NCBI GenBank assembly: GCA_023231475.1
Contig: JALJEE010002916.1
Span: 1 to 47,695, forward strand
Direction of reading: 5' to 3'
DNA from: Seison nebaliae
Lineage: Eukaryota > Rotifera > Pararotatoria > Seisonacea > Seisonidae
DNA: 47,695 nt
Shown here: positions 606 through 46,996 of the stretch, in pieces
How positions within the stretch are numbered: the first letter of the stretch is position 1
Layout of the letters: every line of letters starts with the position of its first letter
The notes under the pieces: model-generated
Told to the model about the DNA's origin: nothing
The model's input: the letters and a program-made list of their open reading frames with translations, nothing else
The model's database searches: none
Made by a program: the position numbers and the translations under genes

Positions 606-1362
606 ATGAAAATTTGGTCATCTGAACATGTCTTCCAGTTACTAATGAATTTCGGAAATAATAATTCTTATGAATTTTAGTCATTCATGGGAAACGATAG
701 TGAACGCAGCTTTGCGCAAATATCCGAATCCTTTAAATCCAGCAGTCATTGGAATTGATATCGTTGATAGGAAGTTAGAAAGAGGAATTTTATCCACACA
801 TCGACTCATCATTACTCAATGGAATTTGGGTAGTTATATCAATATGGTTTCAATTTGAATTAAGAAAAAGATTCTTCATTTGCTTCTTCTTTAGATTATG
901 GGAAATCAAAGAACATTCTTCGCCAGTGAACATTCGGAAATTGATGTGAAAAATCGTCGGATGGTATTGAAAACGAAAAATTTATCGTTGAACTCGAGTG
1001 CCAGTCTGGAAGAGAATATAATTTATGAATCGACCGATAAAAAAAATAAACAGTTAAATTTCCATCAATTTTAAATTTTTATGAAATTTTTGAAGGACGA
1101 TAATGAAACAGGAATCAGTAATTAAAGTTGATAATATGCCTTTGTCGAACTATTTGGAAGGGAAGGCGCTCGGTTTCTGCCAATCCAACGCAACAAAAGT
1201 TTGAATAATTTTTAGTGAAATTTTCCATTTTTTCATTGGGAACAGGGAAGAGAAGCGATTGAATGGGTGATTAGAAGAATGAAAGATGAAATGGATCTAA
1301 TCGATAAAGTAGTGAATATTGATAAAATTAAATATACGATATCTCCTCCCAATTCCAACTAA
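606..1362 (+). CDS. PRELID3: PRELI-domain protein 3 (slowmo), mitochondrial lipid transfer
   Basis: Five exons: 606-637, 681-846, 895-1052, 1096-1198, 1246-1362; introns of 43, 48, 43 and 47 nt; 191 residues, close to the family length of about 194. The protein starts MKIWSSEHVF, the family's conserved N-terminus, followed by KYPNPLNPAVIGIDIVDRK and THRLI, all characteristic of PRELID3/Slmo. It ends with GREAIEWVI, matching the conserved KGRQAMEWVI. By family knowledge, PRELID3 proteins carry phospholipid (phosphatidylserine) between the mitochondrial membranes together with a TRIAP1/Mdm35 partner. The second intron's donor (ATG|GTTTCA at 847) was chosen over GG|GTAGTT at 830 because only the former keeps frame and residue-for-residue alignment. 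All introns start GTT. Identification is strong; PRELID3A versus 3B cannot be separated here. Confidence 0.93.
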
Positions 1363-4300
1363 ACTTACAATCTCCCCACCATCAAATCCAAATTATCGTT
1401 TTCGTTTTATCATATCGATAATTGTTGATATGGAAAGTATTTATTATGCACAATAAATATCATATTTATAGAGAAAGTAATTTGAATGACGATGACGATG
1501 GTCATGATAGACGATAATGATGATAATGGGACGTAATATCGTTAATAAGAAGTTTAATAGAAATTAATTGAGAATATGAATAAGGAAATTTATTTAACTA
1601 TTATCTTAAACCTGCACTCCACTCAACTTGTCTTAACTCACATCATTCCTTTTGCGGAAGTAATAGACAAGAGGAGAGACAAATCGAATAGATTGAACTA
1701 AATGAAACTCAATTGATATTGGGGAGAGTGTTAGGTGTAATACGAAGCATTCGAATAAGTCCTTCTTCCCAACAATTCTTATGTTACTCGAATTTATTCT
1801 GACATTCACAAATAACGACAATTTGATTAAACAATTCTCAGTATTTTCTTTGTGGATATTTGTGAGAAGGACATTTAGTAGGAGGCACGTTTACCTTCCC
1901 ACGAATTTTGTGGTTGTAAAAAACTCATTTTATCTCATAAATATCAATCAACATTATAATTTAGTCATATGAAAATTTGTAGAATTGCAAGGTAGAATTG
2001 ATTCGAAGAGGGAATGATGGTGGAATGGTAGAATTGATTTGAGGGAGAATAATGGTAGGATGATCGACGAACGTGTCGTTATACTAATTAATAATTAATG
2101 TGGAAATTCGTTCATTTCATCTAATATTTAATTTGGATTCTTATCTCGTTTGCGTCTTACATTAGAATTAGAAATAAATTAATTCTATGTCGGTTTCGTC
2201 TTCTTCGGGCGGGAAGTGTAGTGCCAATTCGTTTCATTCTAATTAGTCACGTATCAAATCAAAGAACAAATCAATAATTTTCTAACGATTTCATCAAGAA
2301 TATCTATTTCCGTTTTGATGACTAAACTGAATTTTTTCACTAACCATATGGAATAATATTGTGATACCATTCCAATACATAGCATGCTCATCAAATGCAT
2401 CAGAAAATTGTTTGAAAAATTTTGAATAGAATTATTTAAAAATTAAATCTGTAGTTGTTTAGTGAACTTATCTGTGAGTACCAATGTCCAAATGAATTTC
2501 CATCAAACCATTTCCCATTAAACGACGATGTTCCTTATTTCTACTCCTCATTGTTTAACATCAAAAATTCGAATGTTTGACGGAACTTTCAAATTCTCCT
2601 CACATTTTTTAGATAATGATAATGTGAAAATCATTATTTTTCCATTCAGTTCTTTCTTTTTTCCGCGATTAACTTTCTCGACTATAATTGAGAAAAAATT
2701 AATGTGGGAAAATTAATAAGATGCCGATAGATTGTCGATTTATTAATAAATTACAATTCTTAATTTAATATCATTCACATTATGTAATAAGAATAAAATC
2801 AGGTGAATAATCTCAAATTATGAGATTGAGAATAATATGATATTTAATAAAATGATTCCCTTTTGGCTTTGGTTGAATGTCGAATAAATGAATTAAGAGA
2901 ATTTCTTTTAATGACGATAATACATAGGATGGATGTAAGTAGGAAAAATGTTGTCTGTCTAATGCAAATGACGGTCTGAAGAGAATTATGTTATTGGAAG
3001 TGAGGCGGGAAATACGATAACTAATAATATATTACATTTATTCCGCCATATCTTCTCCTTTTATGCGAACAACTAAAGAAAAGAATATAAGACTTCGTGA
3101 CATTTCTGTTCAATTAATGTTCGATATACCAACTTATACAACTATCAATATGATGATTCACGTCAGTGAAAATTTCTTTCAAAAGAATCCTAATTAAGTT
3201 GACCATTGGACATTTTGCCTCCTCCCATTCATTAGATCATTCGTCCCATCTTTCTTTTCTTTTGCTTAACGCAATCTTTTTTCTATAATAAATTTTCCTT
3301 ATAATTTATGTTTCTTCTCGTTTCATTAGAATTGCTCGTCATCTTTAGAGATAAAATTGATTTATGTTCATTCCAGTTATTTCTAGTTAGTTACCGAAAT
3401 TTCTGGTGTCGTGATTATGGTTGTTCTTGGGAATGTAGTGGAAATATGTATCTCCGATTCTAATGAAGCGAGAAATTATTGATAAAATCATTAAATAATC
3501 GGAGATGAATGTAATGTTCGTGAGGAACTTCCGTGTAATGTTTATGGTAAAATGTTTATGATTTTTCTGGTTAAGCAGACGACTCTTTTCTCCACAACGA
3601 CAATCAATATCATTGCGAAGTTTATGAGATGATGGTTTCCACCAAGAACATTTTTCCTTCTTGAAATTCGTTTGAAAATCTAACGAAATAATTTCCTTCT
3701 TTCTTCGAAAAGTAAAGAAAGTAATCATATTTGACTTCTCCATATAATTACTATTCTTTATAATAAACCTTTCCGTATTGTTGAGTGGTTCACCTACAGG
3801 AATTTTATTTGATTTCCCGATCATTATTAACCTTCATTACCGAGTCTGTCATTCCAAGGTTCAAGAACCAGTTGAAAATTATGGAGGATAAGTAAGAGAG
3901 GACACCAACGTCTGCATAGGAATTTTGGGGGTAAAATAAACATATCTAAATATAATATTGTAGAATTTATTGGGATATTGTGTTAATCGTCTGTCAAAGA
4001 ATGTTAATTATATTGAATCTTTTCTTTCCTTTTCTCTTTCGTTCGATTGGGAAGGATTAACAATAAAATTCCACCAAATTCCTTCACTCTTTCTTTTCCT
4101 TAATAAAATTATTCTAATTATTATTCAATTCGTAATGATGCCTCTAAATTATCCATTTGACATAATCAATTTTTGAAAAAGAAGATCATTTTGAAAAATG
4201 ATCAAGAATAAATAATTTGGAATGTATTTGGACATAGTTTCCCAACTGTCACTCTCTCTCACTTTCCTTTATTTCCGAATGTTTCGATTGTCTACATTTC

Positions 4301-9372: not shown

Positions 9373-11481
9373 ATGACGAATAATCAAACAACAATTTTCA
9401 TACTTCTCCTTCTCAAATTCATATTTCCAATTGGCAGTTAATACTCATTAATACATTTTCCGTCATCATTTATACTTTTCTTTTCAGCTTCACCATCCTT
9501 CATCACATTGGAAGTAGATAATCATGAAACGTTCAATTATCTCAATCGACACAAAATCTCCCAACTCATTTCGCAACACAACGATAAAGAGATTCGGACG
9601 AAAACGGTCAAGAAAGATAAAGTAGTTTCACTACATTGTATAACGATCAATTTGGAGAAATATATTGTTAGTCTCTGCAAATTTCTTCGAAAATTATTCA
9701 AATAATTTATAGATCGCTTGGTTCGATATGAAGAAGAATTTGTTGATAAGTCTCAATAGTGATATCGTCATAAGTGATGATCCGAGATACTCCATTAGAA
9801 TCCATAAAAAAATCATCGATGATGGAAGTAACAAGAATGCGATTCATATAACTGATCACGTTCTCAACATCAAAGAAAGTAAGGAACGTGATGCTGGTAT
9901 TTATAAATGTTTCTCCAACTTTGACGGACCATCACAAAATTATCATTTGAGGAAAGTGATTATAGAAAGTTTTATTTAATTCAAATTTAATTCAACAAAC
10001 TCTTTAATTTTAATTCAAATTTTAGCACCACCAAATATAACGCAAACATCAATTGTGATAATTAAAGATGGTATTCATCCCATCCAAATCAGTGAACACG
10101 AAGAGACGACGAAGAAGACAAATAATTTTGATGATAAATTTAATTTAGAGAAGAATCATTTAACTTCCAACGATCGATTATATGAAGGAAATACTGTTAA
10201 ATTGGAATGTTCAGCACATGCATATCCATCACCACGAATCGTTTGGAGAATAATTCACACATGGACCGAATTCCAATTGAATCACAATCACACCAGACAA
10301 TATTTCAATAAATTAATCAATCTTTTAGATATGAAACAATTTGATAATAAATTATTCTCCAACATCGAACCATTAGCAAATAAACGATATCTACGCCATC
10401 ATTCGATATTGAGTAGTTTTAAAAATCAACGAAAAATTTCCAAGTTCATTAAAGAAGGATCGGAATTAATTCTTCAGAATGTTCGTTCAACTGACGAATA
10501 TTTGTGGAGGAGTTATCCAATTTCATCTACCATTTCCTCCGTAGAGAATGCGGTTGATATAACTGATAAATTCTCTAATAAATTATTACAATTATTCCTA
10601 CCAAATAATTACGATCTTCTCTATCATAAACTTTCAACAGAAATCGAATGTATCGCTGAGAATGGTGTGGAACCGGCATCATCAAGAAGTTTCCGATTAC
10701 ATTTGATCTGTTAGTAATATTCTCCAATAGACTACAATTTTTATATCTCTTTTATTAGATAAACCAAAAATATTAGATGTCAATTTTAAGAAAACTAATT
10801 TTCGACGAATCTTTAAAAAATCTGTCAGTTCTGTTATCTTACGATGTTTATCAGATGGTGAGCCATTACCTAACGTGACATGGAAACGACGTTATGAATC
10901 GGGTAAAGTAAAAACATTAGATTCGTTGAGTACTCATATTTACAAGAAGAATTCAGATAAGAAAAGAATGCCGCATCGAATTTTATTGACGACACATATC
11001 ATATTGGTTAGGAATCATATTATTGATTTATTTATTTTTAATAATAATAATTTTTTAAATAAATTAAACTATTTTTTAGAATATTTCAAAAGACGACATC
11101 GGAGAATATGAATGTCATGCACAAAATTATGAAGGAATAACGTCAAAAAAATTAAGTTAAATTTTCTTCAAAATTTTAATTTCTCAATTATTTATAGTTA
11201 TGCTATTGAAAGATTTCCCGTTATTATCAACACAAATTATGGATTATTCCCAATTGAATTATAATCCGGTCTTCGATTTTACGAATTGGGAAATTGGAGT
11301 TGATAATAAGGCGCAGTTATTGAAAGAAAGTCGATCAAAACATCTTCCTTTCTACCAAACGAAAAAATCGTTGAATTCTAGAACATTATTACACTTTAAT
11401 TCCTCACCAAAACTTTATTCTTCATTTTATTTATATTTTCTCATTTTTATTGTGAAGAGAATGTTTATGAATTTCTTTTGA
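9373..11481 (+). CDS. Three-Ig cell-surface protein (lachesin/DIP-like)
   Basis: Seven exons: 9373-9436, 9488-9666, 9713-9968, 10026-10709, 10759-11006, 11080-11155, 11198-11481; 596 residues. Exon 1 encodes a signal peptide (TIFILLLLKFIFPIG). Ig1 shows SLHC, then IAWFDM, DDPRYSIRI, LNIKESKERDAGIYKC, the pattern of the first domain in lachesin/DIP/IgLON proteins. Ig2 has KLECSAHAYPSPRIVWR and IECIAENGVEPASS, but about 135 residues separate Trp and the second Cys, where about 40 is normal. Ig3 has ILRC, NVTWKRR and DDIGEYECHAQN. The C-terminus ends in a hydrophobic stretch (SSFYLYFLIFIV) followed by a short basic tail, compatible with a GPI signal or a single membrane anchor. Family members act in neuronal adhesion and synaptic partner recognition. 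Family call strong; exact subfamily uncertain. Confidence 0.83.
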
Positions 11482-12028: not shown

Positions 12029-12523
12029 ATGATTCCTTCAGAATTGGATATGTTGACATTCCTTTCCAATAGGTATATTAACAACTTAACAGATCCAATT
12101 CGGAAGAAAACGCTAAATAGAAAAGAATCTAGAAGTGGATCAACTAAACCGATTGTAAAAGGGAAAAAAGTGGAAAATTCAACAAAACCTAAAAGTAGCG
12201 TCATTTCCGTTCCGAAAAGACCAACGAGAAGTATCGTTCGTGAAAAATCGAAAATTTGTCCACAATCAACACAAATTAAAACAATTAAAGCAAGAATGGA
12301 TACAATTCAAGTTATTTAGTTATCTCTATATATCTTATCAATATCGTCCCATTATTGACAGAGTGAAACGGAAATGATCGCTCTGAAATATGAGAAAGAA
12401 TTGAGAAGAATTGACTCTGATCCATCAGTCAAGAATTCGGTAGATAAGATCTCTCAAAAATTGGCAGATGAAATTTTTTGTAGCGAATTTCTGAGAGAAG
12501 ACGAAGAATTCGTTGTTTCGTAG
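12029..12523 (+). CDS. Small unknown basic protein, two exons
   Basis: Exons 12029-12310 and 12362-12523 with a 51-nt GTT...CAG intron; 147 residues. The first exon encodes a basic, Ser/Lys/Arg-rich, probably disordered region (TKPIVKGKKVENSTKP). The second encodes a more ordered, acidic-amphipathic tail (EMIALKYEKELRRIDSD, then KISQKLADEIFCSEF) ending DEEFVVS. I do not recognise the family. The joined frame is open across the splice and the second exon's composition is protein-like, so it is probably real. It converges on FAU; the two stop codons are 52 nt apart, so the 3' UTRs probably overlap. Confidence 0.6.
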
Positions 12524-12575: not shown

Positions 12576-13033
12576 TTACTTCGATCGGGAATTTGGACCT
12601 TTCGGTTTGAAGAATCCTTTCTTGACGATAACAAATCGTCGATTGTATTGAAGACGTCGCTTTGCTCGTCCTGTTGGTGGTTTCTTCTTGTCTTGTTTAT
12701 CCACATTTGGTGTGTGATTCTTCACTTTACCGGCACGAGCCAAAGAACCATGGACACGACCTAAAATTGGAAATAATTCATTTAAAAAAATTAGAAGAAT
12801 TTCGATGAACCTCCAAGTAAAGAAAAATTTAGATCCAAAACAGAATTATCTTTTATGTTCGTTTCTCCCAAAATGCAATCATCACCTTCCAATGGTGCTC
12901 CATTCATATAGGAGAGAGTGAATGGATGTTCTTCACCAATTTTAGATTTTACTGCATTCTCCAAATCTTTCACGCTGTTATCCTCATCGAGGAGAACTGA
13001 ACAGTTGACAACTGATCGAATAAATACTCGCAT
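12576..13033 (-). CDS. FAU: FUBI-ribosomal protein eS30 fusion
   Basis: Exons 13033-12811 and 12760-12576 with a 50-nt GTT...TAG intron; 135 residues. The N-terminal half is a divergent ubiquitin-like fold ([15 protein letters not shown] ... [10 protein letters not shown]) and ends in the LLGG cleavage site. The C-terminal half is ribosomal protein S30: [32 protein letters not shown]. The precursor is cleaved after the Gly-Gly to release eS30 into the 40S subunit; this is established for the family. The intron falls exactly at the LLGG/S30 boundary. A TTTTCCTATTAG acceptor sits 2 nt upstream of the ATG, suggesting a 5' UTR intron, as is common in ribosomal protein genes. Confidence 0.97.
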
Positions 13034-14155: not shown

Positions 14156-14875
14156 ATGCGTATTGATCGGGCGAAGGTTCGGAAAAAATTTATATCTCAT
14201 AAAATTATGAAAATCTTCTTCTTAGACATGTCCGTTATTGTTACGTGTCTTTTGTAACATGAATGAACATAACGATTTATCGGAATATAAAAATGGGAAA
14301 ACGCCATCGAACGGATTAATTATTCATACATGGTTTTATTCCGTTTGTTTCCATCAAATTAAATTTTTTGTAGGAAAGATGCCTCTCTCCAAGAATTCTC
14401 TCAATTGATCAAAGAAGTCAATCCAGAAGCGAGAAAAAAGGGAACACGATTCGAATTCCGAGTTCCATTTTGATCATTTTTTATTCTTTCAAATTTCCTT
14501 CATCAGTTAATTTATCCGACTTCCAGTGCTCAAGAATATCTATCAGAAGATATTGGGAGTATCATATCAGGTAGTACTCTGTCTCGTGGAGGTGGAACGA
14601 CTCTTGAAAATTGCAAATCATTTCGTATCGGAGATTTTCTCGATGTGGCTATTATTCAACCGATAATATCTTCATCGACATCAGCCTCGTCTATGTATCG
14701 ACCGAAAGGACGACAACGTCTCCATTCTCCACCTCGTCGCCACGAAGATTATCATCGATATCATCGAACTGATGAGAAGCCAAGTCGATATGAATCCAAT
14801 CGATCATATCGTTATGAGAGAAGTGGAGGAGGACGACGACGTTCTCGATCACCAATTCGTGATAGATTCAAATAG
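14156..14875 (+). CDS. SAP18: SAP18, Sin3/ASAP complex subunit, with RS tail
   Basis: Exons 14156-14176, 14226-14332, 14374-14461, 14507-14875; introns of 49, 41 and 45 nt; 194 residues. The seven-residue first exon MRIDRAK joins TCPLLLRVF to reproduce the conserved IDREKTCPLLLRVF start. Further matches are TWKDASLQEF, KEVNPEARKKGTRFEF, EDIGSIISG and SFRIGDFLDVAI. SAP18 has a ubiquitin-like fold and acts in the nucleus in the Sin3 histone deacetylase complex and, with RNPS1 and Acinus/Pinin, in the ASAP/PSAP splicing complexes. Most homologues end soon after the IGDYLDIAI strand. Here about 65 residues follow, rich in Arg, Tyr and Ser (RYESNRSYRYERSGGGRRRS, SRSPIRDRFK), an RS-like tail within the last exon. 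Confidence 0.95.
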
Positions 14876-15133: not shown

Positions 15134-17281
15134 ATGAAGAAGCGAAATCTATTCGCAGTGTCGTCGTTCTATGTAAACGGAATAATTTTCAGTTTTCTTA
15201 ACACTTATGGATTGACATGTCTTCAAGCAATGAGAGAATCAGGAATTAAACATTATCTGATTTTTGGTTTGAAATATTTTTTGTTAAATTTCTTTCTATA
15301 TTTTCTTTTAGTTTCAATTGGATCGATTGTATTGTCCATGACATATCTTTCACATTATAATTCTCTACAATTGACTTATAAATTTGGAGCGAGAGTTTGT
15401 GGCATCGTTGGAAGTAGTATAGCTGCTATCACCATTTATTTATCATCATTTCTCTTCTGTGACAATTATACATTCATTTTCTCCAATAATCTCCAATTGA
15501 ACAATTCGACGTTGAAGAAGAAATCGATAATGGTTGAAAATGAATGTGGAATGATCAGTGATGAATCTGTCAATTTTTTCAATTATCAATTTCGTTTATA
15601 TTCTCTCCTCATCATTTACTCGGTCATTTGTGGAATGTCTTTAGCATTAACTTACACAGCATTTTCATATTCATTCAATATTTATTTTCCACCTCAATTA
15701 AACAAAATAACAAATAAATCGAAGAAAAATGAGAATGGGAAATTAATTCGATCCGTCATGAGTTTAGGCGCTCCCATATTATCACCACCGATAATTTGGC
15801 TCCTTAAATATTGTTTGTACAATTTTGGTGTGAGTGTAACATTAAGATTTTTTGCCGTGCTCATTTCTACGATGTGTCCATTATCAGCATTCTTCCTACC
15901 ATCATATCGTCATGGAAGCAAAAAACGACGACAAGTAATAAAGAATTTAAAACGTTTATATCCATTCGATTATCAAACAAATTATCTGGGTGAAAATACA
16001 CCGTTTGTCATTTGGTGTATTGTCGTTCCATTATCATTATTCGCTTATTTTATTCCATATCTTCATCTTATCATTTATGCGGATTATCAATTTGGTGATA
16101 AAAAAATCGATCCACCAAAACTATTGATTGTTGATCATGGTCATCTATCTTCACTTCCAACTACCACAATTCCACTCGATGATTATTATGAATATGCTAC
16201 AGATGATATAGACACGTTAGAGAAGAATAAAGAACAACAACAACGTGTGTTTTATGGAAAATATTTGTCGTTAATGGACATTTATAAACGGAATCAATTT
16301 AATCCATATTCTGAAATACTTTTGACACTTTTATGTTTCATTTCAGGAATCACTTGTGTTCTCATATCTGTAATGTTTAGTGAATCGAAATTAATTAAAC
16401 GTTTATATCTCCATCAATTTACTTTACTTCTATTTGGTGTTATACTTTGTTTGGTACCGGTAGCTAAAGATTTCTCCGCTCTTGTTATCATTACATTAAT
16501 TATTGGTTGTTCTGAAGGTGCAGCAATTGGAATCTCATCAACCATTCTACCTGATCTCATTCTTCAATATCACGATTATTTTGATCGAAAGAATTTCCAA
16601 GAATCTAATCGAATGTTATTCGAATCAGATGATGTGGCTCGAGCCACATCTATTTTAATGTTTCTTTGTGGAATTACAGTGGCTGTCGGTCCAATATTAT
16701 TCGCTTATATTTTTCATCGTACATCAATCTATTCCTATACATTCTTCTCTAGTGGATGTGTAGTTATTATTGCTGCTCTCTTACTCAATCTTGTCATTTA
16801 TCTTTTAAAGAAAAGAACTCGACATAATCTCCATCGAAGACAAATGTATGATGAAGATATCGATGAAGTTGTTGAATGTCAATCATCATCTCTTATCTCA
16901 CCAACAATAATAACAAATGAACAAGAACGAAATAAAAGTAAATCGATGGAGAAATCATCGTCAATGGCGAATGAAGTTCTAGATCAATTTTTAAATACTT
17001 ATATACAAACCAGATCATTACCACGAAAATTTGAATATGTCGACAAAATTGTCAATCTCAATCAATCATCAACTTTACAACAAACAACAGTAACAATTCC
17101 ACCATCAAACGAAATTAAACGATCGGCAACAATCAACGTCAATCCAAATTTTCAAGAGAATCTCAGTCGACAACGGAAAGAATTATATGAGAAAACTTTC
17201 TTCCGTCTCAGTTTTCAAGAGAATTACGATTCTCATGATTTCCCATTAATCATACGCAGTAGTTCAGAAAGAAAATTGTGA
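15134..17281 (+). CDS. SLC16-like (MCT-type) major facilitator transporter
   Basis: Intronless, 715 residues. About twelve hydrophobic segments are visible, in two blocks (roughly 8-316 and 395-560) separated by a hydrophilic loop with an acidic stretch (DDYYEYATDDIDTLEKNKEQ). The second half carries the monocarboxylate-transporter-like pattern LIIGCSEGAAIGISSTILPD and SILMFLCGITVAVGPILFAY. The long C-terminal tail (about 560-715) is cytosolic, Gln/Ser/Asn-rich. The family's usual DGGWGW motif before helix 1 is absent: the ORF opens MKKRNLFAVSSFYVNG. A small upstream exon is possible, since TTTAG precedes the ATG closely. Substrate cannot be predicted. It converges with PMVK, the two stops being separated by one base. 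Confidence 0.75.
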   Translation: MKKRNLFAVSSFYVNGIIFSFLNTYGLTCLQAMRESGIKHYLIFGLKYFLLNFFLYFLLVSIGSIVLSMTYLSHYNSLQLTYKFGARVCGIVGSSIAAITIYLSSFLFCDNYTFIFSNNLQLNNSTLKKKSIMVENECGMISDESVNFFNYQFRLYSLLIIYSVICGMSLALTYTAFSYSFNIYFPPQLNKITNKSKKNENGKLIRSVMSLGAPILSPPIIWLLKYCLYNFGVSVTLRFFAVLISTMCPLSAFFLPSYRHGSKKRRQVIKNLKRLYPFDYQTNYLGENTPFVIWCIVVPLSLFAYFIPYLHLIIYADYQFGDKKIDPPKLLIVDHGHLSSLPTTTIPLDDYYEYATDDIDTLEKNKEQQQRVFYGKYLSLMDIYKRNQFNPYSEILLTLLCFISGITCVLISVMFSESKLIKRLYLHQFTLLLFGVILCLVPVAKDFSALVIITLIIGCSEGAAIGISSTILPDLILQYHDYFDRKNFQESNRMLFESDDVARATSILMFLCGITVAVGPILFAYIFHRTSIYSYTFFSSGCVVIIAALLLNLVIYLLKKRTRHNLHRRQMYDEDIDEVVECQSSSLISPTIITNEQERNKSKSMEKSSSMANEVLDQFLNTYIQTRSLPRKFEYVDKIVNLNQSSTLQQTTVTIPPSNEIKRSATINVNPNFQENLSRQRKELYEKTFFRLSFQENYDSHDFPLIIRSSSERKL

Positions 17282-17282
17282 A

Positions 17283-18139
17283 TTATATTTTCAATATCTC
17301 ATTAAATTTCCTCTCATAATCCAATTCATTATATTCCTTCGAATTGTCAATCTCAAAATTCCAATTCTGTTTCAAATCCAAATTACATTCTGATTCCGCA
17401 TCATCAATTCCTGTAAAGAAAAAAACAAAATAAAATTGAATCTCGGTTTTTTACTGATCTCATTTATTTTTATTAATTTTCCTCAACACATTTATTTCAT
17501 GATTTCTTCCTCATCTTATTAAAGTTTCCTTTCATTCTATAACATATAAAATTGAACCTTTAGTGAAAATGAATCCTCGTTGAATTCTTGAAATCTCATC
17601 CGCTATTATTCGAATATGAATTATTTCTTGAATATTTTTCGTATCTTTCAACTTTTCTTTACTCATCTCAAAATATTCATAATCGCTCAATCGACGACAA
17701 TCCACAATTACGTAAATATCAACATCTATTTAATTTCAACATCGTCAAAAAAAAACAAAAATTTAATTAGGAACTTTCTTTCATATTATTCTCAATTAAA
17801 CGACAAAAAACATATCGATCTTCTTTCCTCTTATCTTCTCCCCATCTGTCAATTAATTGATACACGAAAAATTGTATAAGAAAATTTCAACTTGATCATA
17901 TCATATCGAAATTGTTCTTTGTATTTGGAATGAGATAATAATTCGTTGAAATCCAAATTATGATCAAGAGCATATTGATATTTGAGAGGAGCAGATAATC
18001 TGAGAATTTGTATTTTTATTCCATGTTCTTCGCAGAAACTGATAAATTTTTCACTCCAGAAATCTTTTCCACTTTTCCTCTTACCTGATAACAATAATAA
18101 TCGAACCATTCTCTTCTGTTGATTGATGAAAGCTTTCAA
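17283..18139 (-). CDS. PMVK: Phosphomevalonate kinase (animal type)
   Basis: Exons 18139-17892, 17845-17775, 17725-17558, 17410-17283; 204 residues (human about 192). The P-loop LLLSGKRKSGKDF, then LRLSAPLKYQYALDHNLDF, YKEQFRYDMIKWGEDKR, VDCRRLSDYEYF, RIQRGFIFTKG and IDDAESECNLD follow the human protein in order. The enzyme phosphorylates mevalonate-5-phosphate to the diphosphate in the isoprenoid pathway and belongs to the NMP-kinase-like P-loop fold, not the GHMP fold. The Met at 18109 (MVRLLLLSG) is an alternative start. The third intron is longer (147 nt) than the others. The last exon ends one base from the stop of the convergent transporter. Confidence 0.94.
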
Positions 18140-18221
18140 TTTAGTGAGAACATTCCTTCGATTCTTTTCTCATCGAAAAATTTTTTTTTTTAATTTTATT
18201 TAATAAAAATTTATTTTCAAT

Positions 18222-18851
18222 TTAAGTTTTATAATTTTTATATAATTTGAAATGTTTCAATATGTCCACATAATTCTTTGTCGCCAGATTCATGGTTTCA
18301 GTATACTGATCGATATTAGGATATGGTTTTGTGGATGTATTTTTCGGTGATCCTCTTTTACCATCATAAGTAACGATGGGTATATCGTTTACCCATTTCG
18401 GTATGAATTTTTTTTCTTTCCCAAGAAATATTTCGGCGATCCAGTCGTCGAACCTATCTGAGTCTTCTACAACACTCAATCTAGGGACGGAGATCTCATA
18501 ATTATTCTGTGATTTATTGCTACTAATACTAAAAGTATTATTCGGTTGATCAGGAAATTCTATTGTTGGCGATGGAACGGCACCATCAAAATTCGATAAC
18601 ATGATTGGTGTGAGATCTTCATTGTTCATAATCTCTTCAAAATTTCTTTTGAGTTTATTTGAAACTATTTTTTCTGATTCTCCAACTGCAATTTGAGGTG
18701 TTGCATGATCAGATGATCTATAAACATATCGTCCACTATTAGAAAATAAATCCATTAATGAAAGTAGAATGAGGATAAAAAGAACTTTAATAGATTCCTT
18801 TAATAGTGAAATTAGAATTTTTTTGTTTTTTGAGAAAGTCAGATCTGTCAT
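18222..18851 (-). CDS. Unknown single-pass membrane protein
   Basis: Open frame to 19058, but the start MTDLTF at 18851 is preferred: the longer N-terminus is low-complexity and looks like translated 5' UTR. That gives 209 residues with one hydrophobic segment near the N-terminus (IKVLFILILLSLMDLF) and a polar remainder. It ends with a more ordered region (DRFDDWIAEIFLGKEKKFI, then KNYVDILKHFKLYKNYKT). I do not recognise the family. It is intronless and divergent from the TBC1D5-like gene, with about 350 bp between the starts. Confidence 0.5.
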   Translation of the reverse strand: MTDLTFSKNKKILISLLKESIKVLFILILLSLMDLFSNSGRYVYRSSDHATPQIAVGESEKIVSNKLKRNFEEIMNNEDLTPIMLSNFDGAVPSPTIEFPDQPNNTFSISSNKSQNNYEISVPRLSVVEDSDRFDDWIAEIFLGKEKKFIPKWVNDIPIVTYDGKRGSPKNTSTKPYPNIDQYTETMNLATKNYVDILKHFKLYKNYKT

Positions 18852-21192: not shown

Positions 21193-21342
21193 AGGAGAAT
21201 TATTTTCTCAGTAATTAATTCTAATCCATTTCCATTTATTTATTTGAATAATCATAATGTTCATAATTCATAACAATTCGTTAATTAATTTCTTCTTTCT
21301 ATTTATCATCAATATAATTTATTGAAAAAATGTTAAAATTAT

Positions 21343-25762: not shown

Positions 25763-28700
25763 CTATTTCTCTGATAATAATTTCAGAATTTGATTCATCT
25801 TCTCCTCAAATTTATTCTCTAATTTATCTAATCGACTTCAAATGGAGATAATAAAGAGGAAGAGATGTAAAAGAATGGTAACTGGTTGAAAGTGGAAATG
25901 ATTTCCTGCATTTTCCTCTTCTCCATATCATCAGGTTTTTCAGTTGTTCGTGGAATTTGAGGTAGTTGCATTAACGAATTATAAAGATTCTTTTGAAGAT
26001 ATAATCGATTAGTCACTCTAAGAAAAGAATTGTCAAAGGAATTAAAAGAGAAATTGAGGAAACCGTAATGATTCGTTTGGATTAATGGGAAGTGAATTTT
26101 CCCCATCATTCTCATCAAGAAATCGAGGGAAATTGGGTTGTTTCGGTGTTAAATGTTTTTTCAAATAATTCACATCAGCTAAAAAATGAGGAGTAGTTTT
26201 CTGCTCTATCTTCTGATAATTTATTGATTTATTTGATTCCGTTAGAATTCTCGGTACTGAGAACAAAACATTCGAACTGGATTTGGATCTGATATTTTTC
26301 AATTTATCCGAATTCTGTCGAGATGATGATGTTGGTGGATTGGGCGAATCGTTCTTGATATCTACATCTGTATCATCACTATTCTTCGTTATATCAGTAG
26401 CAATCGTTTTCACCGATAAATCGTTATTATTATCTGACGATTTCTGTAGATGACAATCGGCGTCTGATGGTTTCGATCGTTTAATTAATGAATTGAATGC
26501 ATTATTTCTTCGGAGAAATGAATTGTTATCATTGTGTGTAAGATAAGAGATTTCTTGATTAGAATCTTCAAATTCAGAAATAAATTGAGAATGAAATTAA
26601 TTGAAAAAAATAAACTTTGTAATTTTTTATCAGTTTGATGTAAACATTCGAGATTAAATCGATCTACCGGTTGCAATGGATTATTCGTCTTATTCTTCTG
26701 ATTTAAACTCTTTCTCATCAATTCATTTCTGATAGAGATATCGGGGAAATTCTTTATCGATTCACTATCCACCTGCATCGAACTCACACAATGAGTTAAT
26801 TTTTTCTATTAAGTCTAATTTGAAACAAATTCAAAAGAAGAAAATTTCTAACATTTCTCAACGAAACTGTAATATCGAGACGATCACGAAAATGACTCGT
26901 ATATTCAGGATATGCATGTAACGCATCTAACAGATCCGTCGCAGATAATCGATGCACCAGACAATGTGTCAACGTTCGTACTGTACTATGGGAACGTCCT
27001 GGTGTTTTATGGCGGACAGGATTCTCACCAAAACTATCAGAATTTGCTAAAAAGGAATTTTTTAAAATTTAAAGAAATTTAAATGAAAACTTATTATGGC
27101 AATTAGTGTTGTATTGATATCGTTACCATTGATATCTTTCGAATTTTTCATCGAATGTATTTCGTCAGTTATTAGACTATTATTCTCTTGATTATTTTCT
27201 GAAAATAATTGATTTAAATTCAAATAGAAAACATGAAAATCGAACCGAAATCATTGGAAATTTTATCGGAGAAATTATTGTTATTTCCTACGAATCGAAT
27301 ATCATCATTCTCCATATCGATCACATGAGGTTTCACATTGTGATGTGTATGATGGAAAGGCATATTTCCCGTATCAACTGAAACATCGAAATCATAATTC
27401 GGTTGTTGAAAAATTTCGATACTTCCTCTCGTCAAGAAATAAATTACATTTAATGGATCGTCTTGATTGATTAACGTTTCGCCTGGTGGACATCTGACCG
27501 CTCTTACACGTGTGGAAATGAGTCGTAAGAAACTATAACTAAGTCCTTTGAATACTTTGTTACTAGCGAATAAATTCCAATTGAGATGGAGACAAATATC
27601 GCCTTGAAGAGATTCAGGAAAACTTCTGAGAACTGTATTAGTATCGACACCATTCGAATACGACCACATATGATGGAAATAATCTTCGATTCGTTGGCAA
27701 ATCGGTACGGGCAATTGATGAGTTCGAATGAATTCTTTCAATCTCAACATCTGCGTATGATAACGAGCACTACCGTTATATAATCGTTGAATAATGGCAC
27801 TGACATTTCCAAAGATACTGGCATACATTAATGAACCGATCATCATGACACAAACACTGAAAATCTTCTCATTATTCGTATTTGGAGATACGTTACCAAA
27901 ACCAACGGAAGTGAGTGAACTTAATGTGAAATAAAGTGCGGTGACATAACGCGATTTAATTGATGGTCCTGAAAATCGTTTTGTGGCGTCATATGGCTGA
28001 TTGGTCATATTCGCCAATTGCATCAACCAACCGATCTGACCATATTCTGTTCGTCTTTCTGCATGACCTATCGCGTACCAGATACATGCTAACCAATGTG
28101 CAATCAATGCAAATCCACAAGTCAATAAGCCTAACAATGCGCCACCATATTCTGAATAACGATCCATCTTTCTAGCTACTCGAATCAATCTCAATAATCT
28201 CGCCGTTTTCAATAGGCCGACGAGGGTTGGAATTTTCTTGATATCTTCAATCATCACTTTCAAAATCAGATCGAATGGTATTGCTGCTAATAGATCGATG
28301 ACAAACCAACCGGTTAAATATTTTTTCGCTATTCGAATCTGTTCACTAATTAATTCACCTTTCTCGTTGACATATGTAGTACGGAAATTTATCAGAATAT
28401 CCAAAACGAATAAAACATCGACAGCATAATCGATGTTGGTCATGACAGCTTTCACTTTATCGGATTCTTCCTCACCACTCTCGATGAGGAATGCCGCATG
28501 ATATGGCGTTGAAACGGCTGTGTAAATGACGAAAAATAAGATGATCCAATCCCAGATCGTTTTGAAAATTGAGTAATGAAGAATAGTGCATTTGGCTCGT
28601 GGTTGCTGCATCGGATCTAATTGAAATTCATTTGACATATTTTCATCTCCGAATGTTAATACCTAAATGTGATTAACATGAAATTTATTATGAAACTGTT

Positions 28701-31700
28701 TAATTGTAATACGAAATGATAATATGAAATTAATTATAAACTCATCTTAATTAACAAAACTCTTCATGGACTTAACAAAGTGTGTTGTAGTGGAATTATA
28801 TACATAAAAGTTTTCTTATTCAATATCTTTATTTTCGTTACGTGAACACGTTCCGGGAATGATGAGATAGTTACACTAGTATACTCTGGAGATTTTATTT
28901 ATTGAATGTTTAAAGAGAAAATATTCTCGGTGTATCTTATAAATCTGTCAGACATTCAGGAATTTTTTGAAAAAACTTCATTCACCTATCGATAGGAATG
29001 TCAATCAAATATTTATTAATCTCCAAACATGAATTTTTCATTCATATCTCCGCGAAATATGCTCATGAAAATGACGAATTATTTCATACGCATCATAATG
29101 ACCATATTTCTTATCGTTACATATCTTATTGGAAAGAAGATAAAGATTCTTTTGACATGATCATGAAAGAATGAACAGATATTGTCACATCGAATAGAAA
29201 GAATGAAATCTCAACATCTTCGTATTGTGAACGAGGAAAGTTGCCAAGAGGATTTTTTAGTGAAAACTTTAATTTCTATTGAAAGTCAAATGAATAATTA
29301 TCGATATTCTTTTCCTTTCCATCAGACATCAAATAGAAGGTTTCCTTCCGGAACTTCTTCAATGACCGAGATGAATTGTTCGATTATCATATCGATTTCT
29401 CTTCGAATAAATTCTCAGATATTCTCGACACATTTCCAACTCACATCTTCCTAAAATGAACTTTAACTTTTTTACAATTCGATACTTCTCTCTCAGAATT
29501 TTATTGATTTCTTCCTATAAAAATGATTGTTGTGTAACTCTCTTCAAATTGACCAAATTTCATTGTCCTCCAGATTCGATTTGACATATTTCAATTTTAA
29601 TTTTATTTCTCTTCCAATATTCTCTATAACATACAACTATACAACAATAACAACAACAACAATATTAAAGGTTGGTAAATATGTCTCTAAATTTAACGAT
29701 AATCGCACATCATTATATAATAATGATGGTAGACGGCAAATGTGATTGAGGAGAAATAATTAAGATTTTCGAGAGAATTAAAATAATTGAGCAAAAATAT
29801 GAGGAGTCATTCGATAAGGAAGAGAGTGAGTGAGTGAGTAAGGAAGGAAGGGGATTGAGCATCTTTTCTCTAACTCCTCAATTTGACGAACGTTCGTTAT
29901 CGTTAACGACTAATACTTAAATCAATTTTACTCATCCACACAATCATGACACATGTGCACACATCACTTACTATGGTGGATGATGGGACAAAACCCAAAT
30001 TCTCCTATTCCCAACTATACAACCAACACTTATGTACATTCCTCAACGACGTTCTTCATTTCTCAACTCCGACACTAATAGTTCATTTGCATGAAATTAA
30101 TAGTTCAATTCACACTTTCATTTCAACTCAACTCCTCTTAACACATCACATTACATCGTCACAACGACTAAACATCTGAAGTTATCATAATTAATTCCTC
30201 TTCCAATGATGTAAGTTTCAGAAATTTCATTCATGTTTCTCTCAAGAAATCATATAAGTGAAAACTTTACGAATTGACGATAATTATATTCGGAGAAATT
30301 ACTGCAAATCAATTCCTTAATTAAAAGGAATTTCACTTCGCGGCTGATGAATGAAAAATGTGAAAGTTTAACCTTTTGCAACTTCTCCGCTAAACGGTTA
30401 GTAATTCCAGTGTGACAAGAGAAGAGACGATCATGAATCGTTTTCATTAAAGAGGTACTCTTCGATGCTTCCATATACCAATCGCAATATTCTCGTTTAA
30501 CATTTCGCTCTTTCAATTCTTTCTGATTATTCATCATTGTCTTCTCATAATTGTCTAATTCGTCGTTGATCTCATCACAATTATCAGTGTTGTTGTTTTT
30601 AGGAGTATAGAGGTTGTCTAATGGGAAATCTGGATTAAATTTGTCGTTTTTCGTAAAGATATTTTTCTCTGCACTTTTCTCACCTTCTTTCGAGTATTTT
30701 ATATTCAATTTATTCTTTCTCGTTCCGTTATCATCATTATTGTAAAATGTTTGATATCGTTTCATAACATCATCTATTCATTGACAATCGTTAATGAGAA
30801 CAATAATTATATAAAATGAATAATAACCGATTGTTGTAGTAACCAAATGGTCATGAATTCGACAATTACTCTTTTGTGTGTTATCATTCTTTAGTAATCG
30901 ATCTATTAATAAAAATAATTACACAATTTATCACACAAATAGTCGAATATTGGAAGAATTCGAAAATTTCACATATTAAATAAAGCTCATCCTCTTCTCC
31001 GTCAATATCGAAAATGTTATGGAAATTGATTTCCATATAAAATTATTGTGATATAAAAAATCAATAATTTTTCCTTCACATGTTTATTGGTTAGAAAACA
31101 ATTAAATATTTTTTCAGCGCAGAAAGAATAATTTTATCATCATGTAAAAAAATTCAAATAATTCTTTCAATTATCGATTAGTTTTTCAAATTTAAAAATA
31201 CTATTTCAAAATACTTGCAATCTGACAGAGAACTTTAGAATCATTGAAATTAATTCGAGGAAGACAAAAAGAAAAATTAATTTGAACTCAAAATTGTTTT
31301 CAGCTATCACGTTTTATTGTATTGGAGGAAATGTGAAGTGAAAAACGTCGAAATGAATTTGAAAGTTTTGGAGGAGAAGACTTTAAATCGAAATGAGAAT
31401 AGCTGAAGAAAGCGATGAGCATGGATGGAATGATGCTTCAAACCACTTGATGCAGAATAAATAAGAGGAATCAATTGAAGTTCCTCCTTTTTCAAATATG
31501 AAGAGAAAGGAACGAATGTTTAATTGCTAATAATGGTGTTGATGATCGATCAGTTGATTGTTGAACATGCCGAACCAATCGATATAAAACGTAATTCTCA
31601 TCGTAGTGAATCATCGGTGCACAATTCTTCCTAACACTCACTCTCATCAGTGCATAAACGTTGCTGATGGAAATGTAGATAATAAATAAATATATTAATA

Positions 31701-34700: not shown

Positions 34701-35090
34701 AAAAGGGAAGTCCTCTTATTTCTGCTTTTCGCACCGTATTCTTTTCACATTTTGTCGTCAGTCTTCGACATTCATCAATCAAATAACTCTCATTTCTCAG
34801 ACTCCCGTGCACTTCACAATTGTTTAGAGTGGACGGTGTTAAATTCTCGATTTCCTCCTCATCATATTGATTGAACAGATCACCATCTTCTTCCAGAAAC
34901 GATTTACTGTAGTAAATTATCCGGGAATGCTCAATCGTATTCGGATTGACTAAAAGGAAGCGAATATCTTTAAATGAAAAGGAAATGTTAAAGATAAATT
35001 CAAAATTTAAATTGTCCAACTGTATGACTCAAATTTCTTGATTAATGCAACAATATAAGAGTTTTGTGGTGCAATATGACCACGCTTCAT
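25763..35090 (-). CDS. KCNH (ERG): ERG-type (Kv11) voltage-gated potassium channel
   Basis: Eleven exons: 35090-35021, 34967-34473, 32464-32222, 30773-30373, 28662-27246, 27198-27127, 27046-26853, 26772-26616, 26565-26064, 26017-25883, 25835-25763; 3759 nt, 1252 residues. Exon 1 ([12 protein letters not shown]...IKKFESY, with an in-frame stop two codons upstream) matches the ERG N-cap RRGHVAPQN; exon 2 holds a diverged PAS/eag domain ([20 protein letters not shown]). Exon 4 ends [11 protein letters not shown] and joins VLTFGDENM, matching the ERG linker. Exon 5 carries S1-S6: the S4 motif [20 protein letters not shown], the filter [15 protein letters not shown], and the C-linker. Exon 7 completes the CNBHD ([20 protein letters not shown]). 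Exon 11 ends with [19 protein letters not shown], the C-terminal tetramerising coiled coil. These channels carry repolarising K+ current in nerve and muscle. Less certain: the exon 3 donor and the exon 4 acceptor. Confidence 0.93.
28663..30372 (-). other. Large ERG intron 4
   Basis: 1.7-kb intron starting GTTAAA and ending TTTAG. It contains a (GTGA)/(AAGG) tract near 29824-29852 and a CAA tract near 29641-29664. No convincing coding sequence. Confidence 0.6.
29824..29852. repeat. GA-rich microsatellite (GTGA/AAGG)
   Basis: Tetranucleotide-like repeats GTGAGTGAGTGAGTAAGGAA in an ERG intron. Confidence 0.65.
31307..31728 (-). other. Possible small gene nested in an ERG intron
   Basis: In ERG intron 3, same strand. 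An ORF from 31728 has a hydrophobic leader ([20 protein letters not shown]) followed by [19 protein letters not shown]. At that point a GTTCGG...TTATTAG segment of 49 nt, the usual intron size here, could be removed. The frame then stays open for about 50 codons ([15 protein letters not shown] ... [15 protein letters not shown]). The spliced product would be about 100 residues with several cysteines. I do not recognise it, and it may be chance. Confidence 0.25.
31808..31830. repeat. (GGAT)n microsatellite
   Basis: GGATGGATGGATAGATGGAT within ERG intron 3. Confidence 0.65.
32465..34472 (-). other. Large ERG intron 2
   Basis: 2.0-kb intron starting GTTTTC and ending CCAG. No coding sequence recognised. 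An alternative donor for exon 2 in the same phase lies at GAAA|GTAATT (exon end 34488). Confidence 0.55.
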
Positions 35091-42168: not shown

Positions 42169-45100
42169 TCAATCTACCACCTCCCACAATATCTGTCTAG
42201 CGATTTGTTGAATTTGATGAAAATCGATGTGGAGAAATCTCCGCCAAAATCTCTTTACCTTTCCCCATGTTTCCACGGGATAACAGGGACTACCAATTCC
42301 ATGGAATATTCGTGCAATTGCTCTCGCACTCAACTTCTTTTCTTCATTAAATTGTTCATTCAATTGAAGCAAGTCTTTAATCTCCCATCGAATTTCATCG
42401 ATCTCCTCACTAGATAAATTAATTTTTCTTACAGAATTATCTTTGAAAAAATTCTCGTCGTTCGTTATGAAATATTGGTTAAAGAATCGTCGTATATTTT
42501 CATCTGCTGCCGTTATCTCTTTGTTCGTTACTTCGTCGAAATGATGGGCGATTATTCCCCGCACACTTTCTTCACCGAATTTTCTCATGTTTTCGAGAAA
42601 GACGATCAATGACGAGAAAGATTTCGATGAAATTTTGTTGATTCGTTCAAAAATTTCATTACTCAAATGGTTGATGGTCGTCGTATTATTCACCAAATCC
42701 CAATTCAATATTTCACATCGTATACATGAGTCCGACCATTGTACGTTAATTCCAGATCGATAAACTTTTCCTTCAACTTAAAGAGAAGAATGTTCGAATG
42801 GAAAGAAGAGGAAGAAGAAGTTCTACCTGATCGAATGTATTGGAGATCATTCAATTCTTTCGTTAGTTCTTCCATCGTTAAATGGCGACAATTTATAATA
42901 TCGTGTGAATTGAATTTGATCTTTTTATCTTCGATTATACTTTTCTCTTTGATGATAGGAAACTGTTTTGACGATGAATTCGATGAAAAGGATATTTAAT
43001 TGGAAAACTTTCTGAAAGATTTCTTCAATTTGCGTCTGATCTTTGTAGCAATAAATTTCGCACTTGTAATTGCAATTTTTTAGTAGTTTAATATGTCCAC
43101 TCATTTCCAAATGTGTCAATATCGTTTCTAGAACTACGAAAAGAAAATGTTATTAGCAGAAGATAAAGTAGGAAACCTTCGATCTTCACATCATAAATTA
43201 ATGGAGATTTCTCGATGGAAATAAATCGTTCATGTGTCCCGTCGCCTGAACACCTACAAGTGAATTGGAAAAGATGTCTGAATAGTTGTTTCACACAATT
43301 TAAGTCGATCATCGTCGAATTGATATGTCGTTTCGCTTCATTCAATTCAACAGATTCCTTCAATTTCATCTTATTCGAATCATCTGAAATTATTTAAATT
43401 AAATAAGAAGAAATATAAAAAGTCGAACGATTTTCTTTCGAAAGAAATAAATGAGCATTCGCTTTCAACATATCTCGACCAGCACGACCTGTTTCTTGAA
43501 CATATGCTTCGATATTACTTGAAATATTATAATGAATAATTAATCGAACATTCGATTTATCAATTCCCATTCCTGTCAATCCAAATGATAATTAGATAAC
43601 ACGAAAATAATGGTAACCGAATGCGATTGTTGCGATCATAATTCGAATTTTATCTTTCATAAATTTCTTATAAATTTGTTTACGATTTGATGTTGATTTT
43701 CCAGCATGATAACTATCGAGCATTTCTGGTGAAATTATTTGTGCTAAATCCATTCTCAATAAATTGAGGAGGAAATCACAAGTATTCCGTCTCGAACAAT
43801 AAATGATAGCGACACCATTGTCATTTTTGTGATTGATCCATCTTTTTAATAATTGAATTAATGCTTCATTTCTATCTTCATCGAATGAAACGGTAAAGAA
43901 GATATTATTTCGAATAGTCTCATTAAATCGAATGACCGATCGATTACCGATATGAGAAACGATGTCTGACTCCATTTCTCTTGTGCATGTTGCCGTTAAT
44001 GCTAAGAAACAATCGACATTGAACTCGTCACGTAATAACTGAAAAGGAAGTTGATGAAACTATTCAGAAGAACTAACTTGACACACACGTAAATAGATAA
44101 CTCGGAAATTATAAGACCAATGAGAGATACAATGTGCTTCATCCATACAAACGAAAGCGATTCGTCTCTTCAAACATAATCGATGAAGAATATGATTTTT
44201 GGTGGTGGCTCCAGTCCAAACCATTTCAGGTGAAATCATCAGACAATGTATCGAGAGATCATTATCTAATTTATTCAACGTATTCTCTCGTTGCTTTTCC
44301 GTCAGGGAACTGTGCAATGTCACAATATTCAAACAATTCGGTGCATTCGATATCTGATCATCCATCAACGATACCAACGGTGAAATCACCAAAGTAATCG
44401 GTAAAATTTTCTCTTTTTTTTCTTCAAATATGAAAAGATTTAAACTGATAAAAAATCATAAAAATTTTTATTAAAACCAGTTTTTTTCCACATATCTCCA
44501 CAAAGTAAAAACGATGCAAATTGATAAATCAACGACTTTCCTGTATTAACCAGATGAAAAAAAAGAGAACATTATATAATCATGAAAATTATTCATTAAA
44601 AACCTGAAGCTGGTGGCACTACACATAAAGTAGATTTGCCTTCCAAAATGTGACGGATCGATTCTATTTGAAATGAATGGAAACCAGAATTAATTTTGAA
44701 ATATTTTTTAAGAATTTCTTCGAGAATTTCATCTCCCAATTCGCTACATTCTTCCCGTTTCTTTTCTAAATTGTTCGTCGAATTCATTTCTGGCTCATTT
44801 TCTACAAACTCCAATTCTTTCGTTTCGAATAATTGGGAAGAGTGTTCGGTCGTTTCCGATTGTTGAGGATATTCATCGTTCTCCAATATTTTGTCTAAAT
44901 CATCGTTGATATTATTCATTGCTAATTCGGCAATCTTTTGTGGACAGTTAGTCGCCCAATGTCCTTCTTCGTTACAACGGAAACATTTTGTTCCATCCGT
45001 CTGTGTCTTTTTACCTAATTTCGCCCGATAAACTTGTCTCTTACATCGATTACTTCGATTCTTTGTAAATTTACTACCATAACTTCTCTTATTATTAAGA

Positions 45101-46050: not shown

Positions 46051-46188
46051 ATAATGTTTAAAAAACGAAATTTTCTATTTGTATCAATTTTCACTTATTT
46101 CCATAGAAACAAATAACAGATTAATTATAAACAAACAGCTAATATCTAAATTTGACATTCTATAATTTAATACATCTAATTCATTAGA

Positions 46189-46996
46189 ATGGACATTCTG
46201 GAAGAGTTAGATCAACTCCAACTCGATGGAGAAGACAAAGAAAATAATTTAATAAAAGAATATCGGAAATTGAAAAATGCTGATGATCGAATGAATGAAT
46301 TACAACTGGAACTTGGAAAGAAGTTGAAAGAAAAAAGAGAAACAAATAAAATTTTCCGAATAGAAAACCATCAAATTATTTCATATTCGAAGAACGTTGC
46401 CAAAGTTAAAATTTAAGAGAAAATGAAAAATTTTCCATTTTTTCAAGTCTCTAGGAAATGAAACAATAAACTTAAATGATTACTATAAAGAACGGATAAA
46501 GAATATTGATGAAGAGATTGTAAAGATGAAAGAAGAACAAGAGAAGAGAATGAAGGAAGTGGATGAAAGAATAGAAAAATTAAATTCGATTATTGAGAAA
46601 TTGGAAGAAGAAGTGAGAGAATTGGCACCAATCAGAAGAATAGAAAAGGAACAAGAAGATAAAATCTTGAAAATTCGAGAAGAATTGAAGAATTTACAAA
46701 TTGAACAACAAATTAAATTGAATGAATTAAAAGAGAAATTTCAGTGGGAGACGAATGAATTCAGTCGGCGGATGGAAATCGATATTCAAATGAACATCGC
46801 TAAAGCTAACGAAGAAGCGAAGGAACAGTTGAAGAATAATTGTTTACGAGTGGCGATGAAGAACGAAGAACTACGAGAGAATTTAATAGAATTAATGATG
46901 AAAAGTCGTATTGCATTACGTACAAGGGAATCATTGAAATTGGAAAAGAATAAATTAATTGATGAATTACATAATCAAAAGTATTTCCGAATATAA
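46189..46996 (+). CDS. Coiled-coil protein, unknown function
   Basis: Exons 46189-46404 and 46448-46996 with a 43-nt GTTAAA...CAAG intron; 254 residues (the donor could instead be at AAC|GTTGCC, removing three residues). Almost the entire protein is charged heptad-like helix (EEQEKRMKEVDERIEKLNSI, ILKIREELKNLQ, RMEIDIQMNIAKANEEAKEQ). It resembles cilium/centrosome-type coiled-coil proteins (DUF4515-like), but I cannot assign a family. It is divergent from RECQL4, with 138-219 bp between the starts depending on the RECQL4 start, so the promoter is likely shared. Confidence 0.7.

Follow-up and report, generated by a model that had tools for sequence, protein, structure and literature searches.

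Background

The donor consensus of animal introns has a purine at intron position +3 and G at +5, and in ordinary U1 small nuclear RNA (snRNA) nucleotide U6, a pseudouridine, faces +3 and favors A or G there. The donor-reading sequence of U1 is regarded as nearly frozen, since any change in it would affect thousands of introns together. Several described systems come close to a shift of this arrangement (the papers cited in this text were available in part, and statements on them refer to those parts). In the protist Entamoeba histolytica, the conserved donor GUUUGU has U at +3 and introns are short, ~75 nt (PMC6018208, PMC6085484), but positions +4 to +6 (UGU) are conserved too and no U1 snRNA is recognized (PMC6018208, PMC13292270). 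Among animals, splice-site rules have changed throughout the genome in Fritillaria borealis and other larvacean tunicates; there, GT/AG termini have been abandoned, while two U1 versions have identical, strictly preserved 5' ends, and the authors invoke m6A (N6-methyladenosine) and a U2AF duplication (PMC13326754). In Saccharomycotina, the donor consensus has evolved repeatedly in the region facing U1 and U6, with switches between A and U at +4, which pairs with U1 position 5; however, U1 ACUUACC and U6 ACAGA are invariant, and compensation by U1 or U6 was sought and not found (PMC10581693). In the diplonemid S. specki, canonical U1 is accompanied by a natural paralogue whose 5' end differs, but this variant is a run of Cs and is described as complementary to the donor logo to a degree comparable with canonical U1 (PMC12621601). 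Giardia U1 keeps ACUUAC (PMC3510501), and one paper states that previous studies had not definitively established a correlation of donor variation with U1 (PMC10599564). The present analysis concerns the intron donors and U1 genes of Seison nebaliae and starts from GenBank contig JALJEE010002916.1 (assembly GCA_023231475.1), whose whole stretch of 47,695 nt is referred to as the window. Seison is a tiny epizoic rotifer living on crustaceans. Most of its sampled introns begin with GTT and three of its four detected U1 genes carry A at the nucleotide facing +3, two features that very probably changed together.

Donor consensus in the window and the wider sample

A GTT-dominated donor consensus is confirmed for the sample. 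In the window, a hidden Markov model (HMM) with a neutral donor (G and T fixed at +1 and +2, then plain intron composition, i.e., no other preference at +3) places 46 introns, 41 of them beginning with GTT, three with GTA, and two with GTG; a self-trained version places 53 (49 GTT, two GTA, and two GTG). An earlier note, made from the letters of the window alone, had counted about 51 GTT starts among 54 introns, which is borne out by both figures when compared by totals, not intron by intron. Among the exceptions it named, GTACTG (23007) and GTAGAA (42826) recur, while GTAACG (27126) lies within an exon of the model, a GTTTTC intron at 27047-27090 being used instead.

The assembly comprises 36.0 Mb in 846 contigs, of which the window is contig 100. 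The main sample of 264 kb consists of the window, the starts of 19 contigs (10 kb each), and the surroundings of PRP8 and of snRNA genes; with ten held-out loci, none used in training, it reaches 295 kb, or ~0.8% of the genome. Intron counts exclude L006 (inside L007) and L001 (overlapping L002). Well-flanked introns are those of 35-120 nt with coding flanks of at least 90 nt on both sides, and the HMM disfavors long introns. Two loci, L016 and L022, are dropped only in counts labeled so: by eye, they contain long frames resembling reverse transcriptase/integrase retroelements, and the 'introns' of the gene finder there step over stops and are artefacts.

Under the neutral model, 163 of 219 usable introns of the main sample begin with GTT (8 of the 227 table rows were lost to L001 and incomplete flanks). 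The share is 91/108 among well-flanked introns (64/78 beyond the window) and 90/101 once the two retroelement-like loci are dropped (63/71 beyond the window). The self-trained model gives 110/118, although self-training favors its own majority, and in the held-out loci 23 of 24 well-flanked introns are GTT. Background frequencies are far lower: GTT makes up 9,456 of all 23,174 GTs of the sample, a count that still takes in overlapping loci, and 56 of 151 decoy GTs within 25 nt of chosen donors, compared with 91 of 107 donors (Fisher p = 4e-15). When +3 was changed in silico to A or G in 162 GTT donors and the neutral HMM was rerun, it returned 108 GTA, 84 GTG, 12 GTC, and 6 GTT. As the mutated donors come back mostly as GTA or GTG, the gene finder does not create the GTT bias, and that explanation is ruled out.

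Little donor information lies past +3, which carries 0.91 bits; positions +4 through +9 have between 0.03 and 0.22 bits each. The animal consensus is not followed: in the 101 well-flanked introns (retroelement-like loci dropped), T occupies +3 in 90 and G occupies +5 in 16, close to the fifth given in the earlier note. The remaining bases at +5 are A in 46, C in 16, and T in 23; relative to intron interiors, A and G are somewhat enriched and T is poor there, and +4 is likewise T-poor. On the exon side, position -1 holds 46 A and 30 G among the 101, where codon position would lead one to expect 35 and 18, and -2 is A in 53%. The median intron length is 48 nt (well-flanked self-trained models, limited to 35-120 nt). 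Acceptors of the 108 well-flanked introns (neutral HMM) are TAG in 50 cases, CAG in 28, AAG in 26, and GAG in 4, AAG thus being common sample-wide. The U12-type donor is RTATCCTT; this consensus does not fit, since +6 to +8 are the same as intron interiors and +4 and +5 differ only mildly, and U12-type introns were rejected as an explanation. A search of the assembly for U12 snRNA gave no match, as did the controls of that search.

Agreement of intron boundaries with proteins

Two deposited Seison proteins (SNEBB gene models) were mapped back to the DNA with any boundary allowed near modeled introns. They allow a GT-AG solution at 21 modeled introns, with 20 GTT donors and one GTA. For NMD3, 10 of the 12 introns examined have such a solution (9 GTT and 1 GTA) and two have none. 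The second protein, presumably CFAP57-like, covers 11 of 23 introns, all GTT; introns 1-12 precede its start. It also implies one more intron, read through by the HMM, which by eye starts with GTTTCC and was not counted. As a search with this protein returned only its own deposited record, the gene was compared with the deposited protein and not with homologues.

In the homology scoring, all frame-keeping boundary pairs within 24 nt were scored and the GT-AG pairs among them compared. A profile of NMD3 homologues without Seison prefers GTT at 9 of 12 introns and GTA at introns 6 and 12; intron 1, at an incomplete end, yields none. The GTA of intron 6 is supported, whereas that of intron 12 lies in a divergent C-terminus, is unsupported, and is contradicted by the deposited protein. 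In SUCLG2, GTT is best at 5 of 6 introns; at the sixth, in an N-terminus of low conservation, GTA and GTT nearly tie (21.9 vs 21.3 bits). In the RECQL4-like gene of the window, GTT scores highest among GT-AG pairs at 5 of 8 introns, and the remaining three score near or below zero. Unrestricted boundaries often outscore the best GT-AG pair a little, and at RECQL4 intron 5 by much (67.1 vs 42.3 bits); homology therefore picks among GT-AG sites and does not prove them. Where non-GTT calls of the neutral HMM were overruled by homology or a deposited protein (SUCLG2 intron 3 and CFAP57-like intron 15), they moved to GTT. Both modeled introns of the U1-C gene are GTT as well (GTTATA and GTTCGG).

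U1 genes and other splicing machinery

Four U1 genes exceed the gathering score of Rfam RF00003 (97 to 113 bits vs 69.5; 41 of 293 candidates were scored), and a pattern search with any base at position 6 found the same four and no further ones. Their 5' ends are AUACUAACCUG in the first copy on contig C208 and in the gene on C647, AUACUAACUUG in the gene on C762 (L004:1501-1659), and AUACUUACCUG in the second copy on C208 (L002:1501-1664). The canonical metazoan 5' end, AUACUUACCUG, is thus present in one of four genes; the other three have A at position 6 (A6), and one of them also U at position 9 (A6/U9). Because nucleotide 6 faces donor +3, an A6 U1 pairs with U at +3, and +1G, +2U, and +3U pair with C8, A7, and A6, respectively. 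The change from C9 to U in the C762 copy would allow a pair with A at -1, the commonest base there (46/101). The earlier note had directed attention to the U1 nucleotides facing the donor, and in three of four genes the base opposite +3 is indeed changed.

The four copies are mutually only 62-67% alike. In an alignment fitted to the Rfam structure, however, the first C208 copy forms 43 of 46 pairs, the second 42, the C647 copy 40, and the C762 copy 37, and both-sided changes occur at 23 of the 46 stem pairs with the fold kept. Diverged copies with kept folds therefore look like selected genes and not like decaying copies; selection appears to keep all four as U1. Each has an Sm-like site. The U1A loop AUUGCAC is present in all three A6 copies, while the canonical copy has AGAGCAC instead.

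Pairing was compared between 107 donors and 151 decoys in a fixed register with wobble counted. With A6 U1, the longest run of pairs has a mean of 3.89 at donors vs 2.90 at decoys, and with the A6/U9 copy 4.78 vs 3.35, while canonical U1 does not discriminate (2.80 vs 2.95); this comparison largely restates the match at +3. Predicted duplex energies go in the same direction, more mildly: -2.70 (A6), -2.82 (A6/U9), and -2.11 (canonical) kcal/mol at donors, and -1.86, -1.87, and -1.70 kcal/mol at decoys.

Contamination as the source of the U1 genes is ruled out by the GTT introns on the contigs bearing them (13/13 near the C762 gene, 6/8 on C208, and 2/3 near the C647 gene) and by PRP8, which is 100% identical to Seison nebaliae SNEBB_004371. 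PRP8 (L007:615-7715) has no introns, its 2,366 residues being encoded in one uninterrupted frame. A search of the assembly for COX1, as a marker of lineage, gave no match.

In the single U6 gene detected, the ACAGAGA box is intact, and a shifted U6 is rejected for that gene; of the altered U1/U6 recognition proposed in the earlier note, the U1 part is supported and the U6 part is not. Loop 1 of U5 (GCCUUUUAC; one gene) and the branch-recognition GUAGUA of U2 (3/3 genes) are intact. U1-C is close to human U1-C through the zinc finger, and one METTL16-like match was found. LUC7 matches occur at one locus only (L029/L031, contig C540). Its zinc fingers presumably resemble those of human LUC7L3, a resemblance left unconfirmed by a structure search able to show only yeast Luc7 and by the literature, which gave nothing; if so, a LUC7L3-type identity might be connected with the low donor information from +4 to +6.

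Two upstream similarities seen by eye serve as leads only. The canonical U1 gene (L002) and one U2 gene have TTATCACACTTTT in common upstream, and ACAGTTC[A/G]CACTTTCT, which may be an snRNA promoter element, lies ~75 nt upstream of both U5 (L038) and the A6/U9 U1 gene (L004).

Proposed mechanism and alternatives

Judged from the gene sequences, the donor has very probably been recoded to GTT because the main U1 snRNAs changed with it, consensus and U1 having shifted together. Confidence is high in the donor consensus and in the U1 gene sequences; the U1 change as the explanation of the consensus is a strong inference, and in this sense the interpretation of the earlier note is supported. In the proposed course of events, U1 would have been duplicated, one lineage would have gained A6, and donors would then have drifted to GTT, the order of these steps being presumed. 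A6 U1 small nuclear ribonucleoproteins would be expressed and do most of the donor selection. The donor would then be handed to the unchanged ACAGAGA box of U6, which would form no Watson-Crick pair with +3, so that only U1 had to change. The ACAGA box of U6 pairs with +4 to +6 and not with +3, and for this reason U6 itself need not change.

The few GTA donors might be read by the fourth, canonical U1 or be tolerated with a mismatch; this gene may serve GTA donors such as NMD3 intron 6 (GTATTT), or something else. A finer division, in which A6/C9 copies would read G/GTT, the A6/U9 copy A/GTT, and the canonical copy, devoid of the U1A loop motif, the residual GTA donors, is proposed tentatively, at somewhat less than an even chance.

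Several observations weigh against a joint shift of U1 and donor. The genome still has one intact canonical U1 gene, whose duplex is predicted to be slightly stronger at donors (-2.11) than at decoys (-1.70 kcal/mol). Broken stem pairs are most numerous in the A6/U9 copy (8 of 46). In a search for a promoter motif common to the U1 genes, scores lay within the range of shuffled sequences. About 5-11% of modeled donors are not GTT, part of these being errors; nevertheless, the GTATTT of NMD3 intron 6 is backed by both homology and the deposited protein. With all held-out models considered, weak ones included, only 33 of 43 introns are GTT. Finally, pairing past +3 is weak, as the scarcity of G at +5 illustrates; the duplex would therefore be short, and other factors must supply specificity.

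Among alternatives, GTT could have arisen for a reason other than U1 (e.g., selection by U6, Prp8, or another protein), with A6 U1 genes minor or silent and their match to the donor coincidental. The canonical gene, kept with a good fold (42/46 pairs) and with an upstream stretch in common with one U2 gene (by eye), is what such an explanation can draw on. Yet the single change corresponding to the donor shift is common to three diverged, well-folded U1 genes, the U1A loop motif is missing from the canonical copy alone, U6 is unchanged, and canonical U1, judged by pair runs, does not separate donors from decoys, which makes this explanation improbable.

It is less likely still that U1 pairing is nearly irrelevant, short introns being found by intron definition and A6 and +3T having drifted into a loose match. 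Lost dependence on U1 predicts a lost bias at +3, yet +3 carries most of the donor signal, and the donor changed exactly opposite the altered U1 base. The short introns (within the limits of the models) and the scant information past +3 are in keeping with such drift, and the reliance on intron definition suggested in the earlier note fits the former; short introns do not by themselves explain T at +3, however. An artefact of base composition or intron placement has almost no probability as the source of the bias and is untenable within the sample. It could draw on the AT-richness of the genome (29-36% GC per locus), on the 41% share that GTT has among all GTs, and on the T-rich intron composition of the neutral model, which mildly favors +3T, but donors and decoys differ sharply (91/107 vs 56/151), the in silico mutation of +3 was recovered, and homology and deposited proteins agree, with corrected non-GTT calls moved to GTT.

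Introns of the window

All introns listed here were placed by both HMMs unless stated otherwise, and gene names are those of the earlier note for the PRELID3-, FAU-, SAP18-, and ERG-like models. On the forward strand, the self-trained HMM alone places introns at 847-894 (GTTTCA) in the PRELID3-like gene and at 1053-1095 (GTTAAA). Others follow at 9437-9487 (GTTAAT), 9667-9712 (GTTAGT), 9969-10025 (GTTTTA), 10710-10758 (GTTAGT), 11007-11079 (GTTAGG), 11156-11197 (GTTAAA), and 12311-12361 (GTTATT). The SAP18-like gene has two introns, at 14333-14373 (GTTTTA) and 14462-14506 (GTTCCA). Two further forward introns are placed by the self-trained HMM only, at 15267-15311 (GTTTGA) and at 16401-16463 (GTTTAT), the latter doubtful as the frame is open throughout in the neutral model; the last one on this strand is at 46405-46447 (GTTAAA).

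The remaining introns lie on the reverse strand. The FAU-like gene has one at 12761-12810 (GTTCAT). Farther along are 17411-17557 (GTTCAA; self-trained HMM only), 17726-17774 (GTTCCT), 17846-17891 (GTTGAA), and the exception 18164-18269 (GTGGAC), which is doubtful because the model may join two genes.

Two tandem duplicate genes, which we take to be AprA/PhoPQ-related-like, occupy 21299-23203 and 23569-25305 and have intron places in common. The introns of the first copy and their counterparts in the second are 21541-21589 (GTTACT) and 23731-23780 (GTTATT), 21681-21725 (GTTAAA) and 23872-23916 (GTTAAA; self-trained HMM only), 21854-21900 (GTTTAA) and 24045-24091 (GTTTAA), 21989-22035 (GTTCTA) and 24201-24248 (GTTTAA; self-trained HMM only), 22278-22327 (GTTTCA) and 24458-24507 (GTTGAT), 22621-22672 (GTTAAA) and 24801-24842 (GTTGAA), 22786-22843 (GTTTTC) and 24956-24998 (GTTGAT), and 22959-23007 (GTACTG, an exception) and 25114-25157 (GTTCGC). 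The last pair, in which one intron common to both copies starts with GTA in one and GTT in the other, indicates that GTA and GTT can interchange.

In the ERG-like model, introns are at 25836-25882 (GTTACC), 26018-26063 (GTTTCC), 26566-26615 (GTTTAT), 26806-26852 (GTTAGA), 27047-27090 (GTTTTC), 27199-27245 (GTTCGA), and, in the self-trained HMM only, 28663-28755 (GTTAAT), a doubtful donor with an upstream exon of 12 nt in the model. Three more are located at 30774-30827 (GTTATT), at 30903-30936 (GTGTGA, an exception of 34 nt in a weak model), and at 34950-35020 (GTTGGA; acceptor end at 34968 in the neutral model).

The RECQL4-like gene contains eight introns. Homology is uninformative for 42777-42826 (GTAGAA, an exception), for 42963-43008 (GTTTTC; self-trained HMM, with 42921-42963 and GTTTCC in the neutral model), and for 43134-43176 (GTTTCC; acceptor end at 43128 in the neutral model). 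At 43384-43428 (GTTCGA), the modeled pair is the sole GT-AG option by homology, an unrestricted boundary scoring much higher. Homology agrees with both HMMs at 43573-43617 (GTTACC) and 44541-44603 (GTTTTT), and at 44422-44477 (GTTTTA) it prefers the same donor with a different acceptor. At 44039-44077 (GTTAGT; self-trained HMM, with 44060-44101 and GTTATC in the neutral model), it gives 75.2 bits vs 61.6 for the best GTG.

Comparison with known systems

No GTT-dominated animal genome and no natural U1 compensation appeared among the matches listed in a search of openly licensed PubMed Central papers, as far as their available parts go. In the Seison genome paper (PMC8351084), likewise available in part, no splice-site analysis was found; 'intron' occurs twice and 'splic' once.

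Seison differs from Entamoeba in that U1 is present and changed; donors of the Entamoeba type, with +4 to +6 fixed and U1 unrecognized, do not occur in the sample, where only +3 is strongly biased after GT. Unlike Fritillaria, Seison keeps GT-AG and changes U1. In engineered suppressor U1 snRNAs, a change in U1 restores pairing with a changed donor. The principle is the same as that proposed for Seison, but suppressors are laboratory-made and act on single introns, whereas the Seison case would be natural and genome-wide. In a genome of this kind, gene finders trained on GTA and GTG donors may put introns in the wrong place. Seison provides a natural case of U1 change that can be tested, with a mixed U1 gene set as a possible intermediate still in the genome, and the split U1 reading system, if true, would constitute direct natural co-evolution of U1 and the donor consensus in an animal genome.

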